A stretch of 64,000 nucleotides of DNA from Phycisphaerae bacterium (lineage in GTDB: Bacteria > Planctomycetota > Phycisphaerae > Sedimentisphaerales > Sedimentisphaeraceae), in contig JALWYQ010000001.1 in assembly GCA_027078365.1 (NCBI GenBank), positions 1 through 64,000 on the forward strand, read 5' to 3'. Position numbers and translations under genes: made by a program. How positions within the stretch are numbered: position 1 is the stretch's first letter; every line of letters begins with the position of its first letter. Below the pieces are notes generated by a model. It saw only the letters and a program-made list of their open reading frames with translations, searched no databases and was not told the origin of the DNA. Below, piece by piece: positions 46,271 through 46,991 of the stretch.

Positions 46271-46322
46271 CGTAACCTAATCAAATAAAAAAAGAGAGTG
46301 GGTTTATAAGCCGAGTTCTGTA

Positions 46323-46377
46323 CCTGTCACTTGTTTTCGCTTACCCAGCGGTTAGACAAGCTAAAACAAGTGACAGG
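46323..46377 (-). repeat. 55-nt hairpin repeat, copy A (3' arm of rnpB)
   Basis: Outer 15-bp stem CCTGTCACTTGTTTT/AAAACAAGTGACAGG and an inner GCUUGUC/GGUAAGC stem in which two G-U wobbles replace the A-U pairs of copy B. Matches copy B at 51 of 55 positions. Confidence 0.92.
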
Positions 46378-46671
46378 TGGCGATCATTTAACTAGACTTT
46401 CTGTTACCAGAAAGCTCTGCGACGAATCGCACGCGATCTACCCGCTGGCAGATAGCCGGGCAAGCTGAACCAGCATACTTGATCTTGCAGGCGGTGGGGT
46501 TTACCCTGCCATCTTTGTCACCAAAGATGCGGTGCGCTCTTACCGCACCATTTCACCTTTACCTGTTCTCTCAAAAGAGTCATCGGCCGTGTATTTTCTG
46601 TGGCACTTTCCCGCGGATCACTCCGGGTGGCCGTTAGCCACCACCGTGCCCTATCCTGCTCGGACTTTCCT

Positions 46672-46726
46672 CCTGTCACTCGTTTTCGCTTATCCAGCTG
46701 TTAGATAAGCTAAAACAAGTGACAGG
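46672..46726 (-). repeat. 55-nt hairpin repeat, copy B (P3 arm of rnpB)
   Basis: Same hairpin as 46323-46377 with four differences; the inner stem GCUUAUC/GAUAAGC is perfect and the loop is UAACAGCUG. I found no third copy in this window. Confidence 0.92.
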
Positions 46727-46991
46727 CGACCGCCCAACCCACTCGACCGCTGATTGTACAAAAAAGCTGCGCTCTTAGCAACTGCATCTCTTGAGTAAAG
46801 TAGAATTGATAACAACTTCTCTAAAAACAAATATTACTAGATTGTTTAGATTCATAATCTTTGCCACTTTTGTTAGCCAAAGAAAGCAAGATTAGCGGTG
46901 ATTTTTGAGGAGATTTCAAAAAAAATTTCATCGCTTAACACCTATGATATAAGCAATTACAAAAAGATAAAAAAACAAGAGCAATATTAAA

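Follow-up and report, generated by a model that had tools for sequence, protein, structure and literature searches.

How does a single ribozyme gene come to carry nearly the same hairpin in two of its arms? Descriptions of miniature hairpin elements normally place them between genes. In the window, that is, the whole 64,000-nt stretch of DNA analysed here (Phycisphaerae bacterium, GCA_027078365.1, contig JALWYQ010000001.1, positions 1 to 64,000; genome label G000), two such hairpins lie within rnpB, the gene for RNase P RNA (Table 1). The P3 and P19 arms of this gene, each of 55 nt, are identical at 51 positions, as the initial annotation had reported and as the sequence and the Rfam alignment confirm.

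The gene encodes a class A RNase P RNA with a conserved core. The bacterial class A model (RNaseP_bact_a) is matched in full by cmscan (model positions 1-367) with 276.1 bits and an E value of 1.4e-90, well above the gathering score of 100, and this is the single RF00010 match among those listed for the window genome. Relative to the model, both arms are insertions: copy 1 falls between the P3 strands, while copy 2 sits between the P2 3' strand and the conserved ACAGAAC, which is the P19 position. With the inserts at the P3 and P19 positions, both arms lie inside the RNA. The covariance-model alignment proposed as a check by the initial annotation thus places both copies within the mature RNA and neither outside it. 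The two repeats are spaced by 349 bp, their flanks are set by P2 and the core, and the best repeat within the gene scores 45, whereas 480 dinucleotide-shuffled rnpB genes reach 13 at most.

Table 1. Features of the rnpB locus, in window coordinates.
Feature	Coordinates	Strand	Basis
rnpB, gene for the class A RNase P RNA with the two hairpins	46291..46745	(-)	RF00010, cmscan
Copy 1 of the hairpin, forming the entire P3 arm (CCTGTCACTTGTTTTAGCTTATCTAACAGCTGGATAAGCGAAAACGAGTGACAGG)	46672..46726	(-)	fold -34.0 kcal/mol, z -10.7
Copy 2 of the hairpin, forming the entire P19 arm (CCTGTCACTTGTTTTAGCTTGTCTAACCGCTGGGTAAGCGAAAACAAGTGACAGG)	46323..46377	(-)	fold -30.7 kcal/mol, z -8.0
Segment between the copies, with the catalytic core and the other helices (GAGGAAAGTCC ... 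P2 3' strand), insert-free	46378..46671	(-)	Rfam alignment; 92% identity to sister species outside arms

RNAfold predicts the same stem for both arms, with one internal mismatch and 5-nt loops (ACAGC and ACCGC) instead of the 9-nt loops originally described. Three of the four differences between the arms fall in the stem (A21G opposite U35, A34G opposite U22 and G46A opposite U10, in RNA-strand numbering) and the fourth, A28C, in the loop. Each of the stem differences exchanges A and G opposite a U, which replaces A-U by G-U or the reverse, and thus pairing is kept in both copies, in agreement with the initial reading of the inner stem. A kissing contact between the loops through CAGC/GCUG complementarity had also been proposed. 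This function is not supported, because the predicted fold already pairs some of the bases concerned and because the sister species, G001, has lost the complementarity: its P3 loop reads GAACAAG and its P19 apex UAACUACUG.

The sister species (Phycisphaerae bacterium S145_28, WGDE01), which was assembled separately, shows the same two-arm layout, with both arms from the same hairpin family. It places the lineage in the Phycisphaerae (Planctomycetota), and the order is probably Sedimentisphaerales. The identical arm feet are kept in both species; the interior of P3 in the sister differs in sequence and length. In the 2.29-Mb window assembly (86% complete), neither a search for the 55-mer that allowed up to 3 mismatches nor a covariance model yielded a third copy. 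Foot and foot-pair patterns exceed the control level in rnpB only, in G000 as well as in G001, and this confinement to rnpB within the two genomes counts against a mobile hairpin. A palindrome scan of GTDB genomes with CCTGTCACYTG...CRRGTGACAGG returned 19 stretches, of which only WGDE01000055.1 from the sister belongs to this lineage; the others were taken as chance palindromes, without individual inspection. In a phage collection, matches to other rnpBs were confined to the conserved core.

The picture is widened by a covariance model that was built from the four arms of the genus and searched in 161 genomes of the order. It recovers the four arms and, in addition, five dispersed intergenic sites in the complete genome G002 of the same family (E 1e-7 to 4e-5). 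All five have the form CCCGTCACTTGTTTCAC...AAACAAGTGACGGG and none lies in rnpB; around the three sites examined no Rfam match was detected. The genome-wide search for the hairpin, suggested by the initial annotation, thus yielded dispersed relatives in the same family and no further copy in the window genome. In rnpB of the family relatives G002, G003 and G004, P3 and P19 are short and lack the element. Together, the dispersed relatives and the short arms indicate that the hairpin represents a family dispersed within this bacterial family, which entered rnpB in the lineage of this genus. The window hairpin is thus a member of this small dispersed family and no ancestral RNase P structure. The combination of unrelated arms in relatives and a lack of other genomic copies, which had been named in advance as fatal to the mobile-element and paired-arm ideas, was tested and is not what these genomes contain.

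Hairpins that share another type of foot, CCCCGCAC, are found in rnpBs throughout the order. The sample comprises 124 anchored rnpBs, or 122 after leaving out the window genus, and at least 20 of these 122 carry CCCCGCAC-footed hairpins, a lower bound like all counts for the order because strict anchors miss some genes, e.g., L051 with three such arms. The hairpins measure 53-113 nt, have feet of the form CCC(C)GYACY...RGTGCGGG, and occupy P3 (10), P19 (10), P12 (9), P8/9 (3) and P15-17 (1), with at least two of them in nine rnpBs; as elements, they fall at 65-71, 80-84 and 98-113 bp. Elsewhere in the order the same arms are filled by different sequences, and CCCCGCAC-footed hairpins are absent from the 20 long rnpBs sampled in the rest of the phylum. 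That the window hairpin is itself a CCCCGCAC-family member was considered and rejected, as its foot scores 0.5 with the position matrix and ranks 120 among 127,968 window positions. A CAC-YTG-TTT core is common to both and at most suggestive; since the matrix misses the window foot, the two families are linked by architecture and not by demonstrated homology.

Further inserts and duplications were observed around rnpB in the order. In four rnpBs (L046, L053, L148 and L157) an unrelated palindromic insert, TCCTGCG...GAAGCAGGAC, lies between P12 and P14, where it splits the conserved GGTGCGGTAAGAGCGCACC hairpin into GGTGTTC...GGACGGTAAGAGCGCACC and constitutes a further insert family. P3 and P12 of the G027 rnpB (L026) have common 18-nt feet, CCCCCTCTGCTTCTTGC, and differing tips, and belong to a family other than the CCCCGCAC hairpins. 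A second, degraded RNase P RNA match is located about 0.5-0.8 kb from the main rnpB at L037 (G045 C241:5711-6040, 62 bits) and at L140 (G078 C70:101488-101648, 32 bits).

Evidence for mobility comes from copies outside rnpB. With the rnpB copies included, palindromes of the CCCCGCAC type number 15 in G111, 8 in G027 and 6 each in G113 and G023; in G033, G021, G017 and G055 they are restricted to rnpB. The P15-17 arm of G111 is identical at 101 of 106 positions to a copy on contig C154 (L297), which has no Rfam match, and a copy on C90 agrees with the P19 arm of G027 at 93 positions in a span of about 109. Rfam recognised no family on the dispersed copies. The near-identity of the G111 arm to a non-rnpB copy in the same genome makes mobility well supported, and the G111 and G027 copies provide the strongest argument that such arms are inserted mobile elements. 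Possible 4-nt direct repeats occur at the edges of a few dispersed copies (tcaa at L226 and L227, tgaa at L232), and at the rnpB sites no target-site duplication was established. A CCCCGCAC-footed hairpin is also present just 3' of the 16S rRNA gene of G043, upstream of group II intron pieces (contig C10, L194:407-510).

Whether two arms of one gene were filled separately or one from the other depends on how their sequences are related. Clear interior duplications between arms were detected in eight rnpBs from six genera (L025, L048, L049, L050, L052, L053, L055 and L164), all in direct orientation; no clear interior duplication fits better when inverted. The species of genus g12 share 97-99% of their core sequence, but their P3 and P19 are closer within a genome than by position. 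The sum of within-genome P3-P19 distances is smallest in all three species pairs, and a single-clade P3 tree is rejected (p-AU 0.005), which supports a sequence exchange between arms in this genus. P12 of G033 is 84% identical to its own P3/P19, compared to about 60% for the P12 arms of its relatives and their own P3/P19. In the window genus, P3 and P19 within G000 share 92.7% identity, as against 72.7% for P3, 89.1% for P19 and 92.0% for the core between the species. The tree of the four 55-nt rows nominally favours the split P3+P3 (support 52/70) and does not reject vertical descent; four such rows are too few to separate trees, and copying in the window genus is hence rated likely rather than shown. 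Gene conversion between arms, one of two initial proposals, thus gains support in g12 and is plausible in the window genus, where it is not statistically separated from vertical descent. Of the other proposal, a palindromic element inserted twice, the mobile-element part is sustained by the dispersed relatives in G002 and the near-copies of rnpB arms in G111 and G027, while double insertion and copying are not separable with four 55-nt sequences. Two independent insertions into P3 and P19, followed by ordinary divergence and no copying between the arms, would not be at odds with the tree of the window genus. They also have precedents, since two or three family members with unrelated interiors in one rnpB (L012, L046 P19, L151, L158 and L159) must be separate insertions there. 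However, this explanation requires an unusually fast P3 in the sister species to account for the identities listed above, and vertical descent of P3 is rejected in g12; for the window it is rather unlikely.

Selection could also keep the arms alike if the RNA needed two identical arms, either for a kissing contact or as a shared protein-binding hairpin. The pairing retained at all three stem differences and the identical feet in both species are compatible with this idea, but G-U-tolerant differences are accounted for by folding alone, the sister species does not retain the kissing bases, and the interior of its P3 differs in sequence and length. Moreover, both hairpins are absent from the closest family relatives, and different sequences occupy the same arms elsewhere in the order, which makes such a requirement improbable. 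That the repeat arose as an assembly or sequence artefact of a metagenome-assembled genome would be still harder to believe. Both the window genome and that of its sister are drafts and the repeats lie close together, yet the separately assembled sister combines the same architecture with bases of its own, four positions distinguish the two copies, and reads are usually longer than a 55-bp repeat.

Both arms are thus probably copies of one REPIN- or TIR-dimer-like mobile hairpin, which was tolerated at helix tips and then copied between the arms. A dispersed family exists, rnpB arms are members of such families, and family relatives have short, hairpin-free sites. The element would consist of an inverted pair of conserved ends of about 15 nt around a shorter, freer interior, and would have settled at the tips of the peripheral helices P3 and P19 in the ancestor of the genus. 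Insertion would be tolerated because the transcribed hairpin only prolongs a helix, and apparently leaves the fold undisturbed. Gene conversion or template switching could afterwards let one copy within an rnpB overwrite another, with selection at the RNA level asking only that each copy still folds. We infer that in the window genus copying from the first arm, and not a second independent insertion, produced or renewed the second copy; the enlarged RNase P RNA is presumably active. A broader version, which we advance tentatively and would not yet favour, regards the RNase P RNA of the order as a preferred and repeatedly used residence of hairpin elements, whose helix tips evolve in concert by arm-to-arm copying. 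In that reading rnpB is a refuge, as the family survives only inside rnpB in the window genus, G033, G021, G017 and G055.

IS200/IS605-like Y1 transposases (PF01797) are encoded in 15 of 16 genomes examined, including G000 (two genes) and G001. In G023 and G149, which come from other families of the order, Y1 genes are flanked by inverted TIRs of the sequence AATTAGGGACAG[C/T]CACCTATTTTT. The hairpin ends match these TIRs at 12 of 13 positions over GTCACCTRTTTTT, and the hairpin end in P3 of G001, GTCACCTGTTTTT, resembles them. The two loci, L279:1395-2170 and L280, are TIRtrons, with the Y1 gene enclosed by long inverted TIRs (GGGACAG(C/T)CACCTATTTTT). The hairpin sequence is absent from the flanks of both G000 genes and of two G001 loci, where one flank ends at the contig end, and neither G000 nor G001 yielded a TIRtron that has the end sequence of the window hairpin. 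As no Y1 gene with that end sequence was found, we infer the transposase link: the mobiliser may be an IS200/IS605-like (Y1, HUH) transposase of the RAYT/TIRYT type.

Here, hairpin elements make up entire peripheral arms of the universal tRNA-processing ribozyme; several lineages show this, with up to three sites per gene. This offers structured RNAs a concrete way to acquire expansion helices, and it provides a natural experiment on concerted evolution within a single RNA molecule. It also calls for caution in covariation analysis, as two arms of one RNA may be alike through copying and not through function.

Rickettsia palindromic elements (RPE) are mobile palindromic repeats tolerated within genes and are best known from protein-coding genes. 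RPE-1 lies in a tRNA pseudouridine synthase gene (cited in PMC3733652). The window hairpin, from another lineage and of another sequence, is likened to them by description. REPINs are REP doublets that form hairpins and are mobilised by RAYTs; they are described as extragenic and abundant, with hundreds of copies and forms of about 71 and 110 bp (Bertels and Rainey 2011, PMC3116915). Like REPINs, the elements in rnpB are miniature and non-autonomous, have an inverted pair of conserved ends of about 16 nt with a freer spacer between them, form a hairpin in single-stranded DNA or RNA, and show compensatory changes across the stem; in the window element the inverted ends form one hairpin. In contrast to REPINs, they reside inside an essential structured RNA at low copy number (2-15, with just the two rnpB copies and no dispersed ones in the window genome), and no GTAG tag or cognate transposase is tied to the window element, whose neighbours in rnpB are P2 and the core. 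TIR-associated tyrosine transposases (TIRYT) have TIRs that occur as dimers and clusters, and their repeats are known from planctomycetes (Di Nocera et al. 2013, PMC3733652). The Y1 genes of G023 and G149, placed between TIRs that resemble the hairpin ends, correspond to the TIRtron/REPtron arrangement, in which a transposase gene is flanked by its repeats (PMC3733652, PMC3116915). Residence in rnpB sets the hairpins apart from TIRYT repeats, and RNase P is not mentioned in PMC3733652. Repetitive DNA within rnpB has a parallel in the STRR repeats reported from cyanobacterial RNase P RNA (Vioque 1997, cited in PMC2858038); those are short tandem repeats, unlike hairpins duplicated in separate arms. 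The open literature searched, with most subscription papers outside that search, contained no report of hairpin or REP insertions in bacterial rnpB. Each element is of a known kind, and what is new, to our knowledge and within that literature, is its residence in several arms of an essential ribozyme together with the copying from arm to arm.
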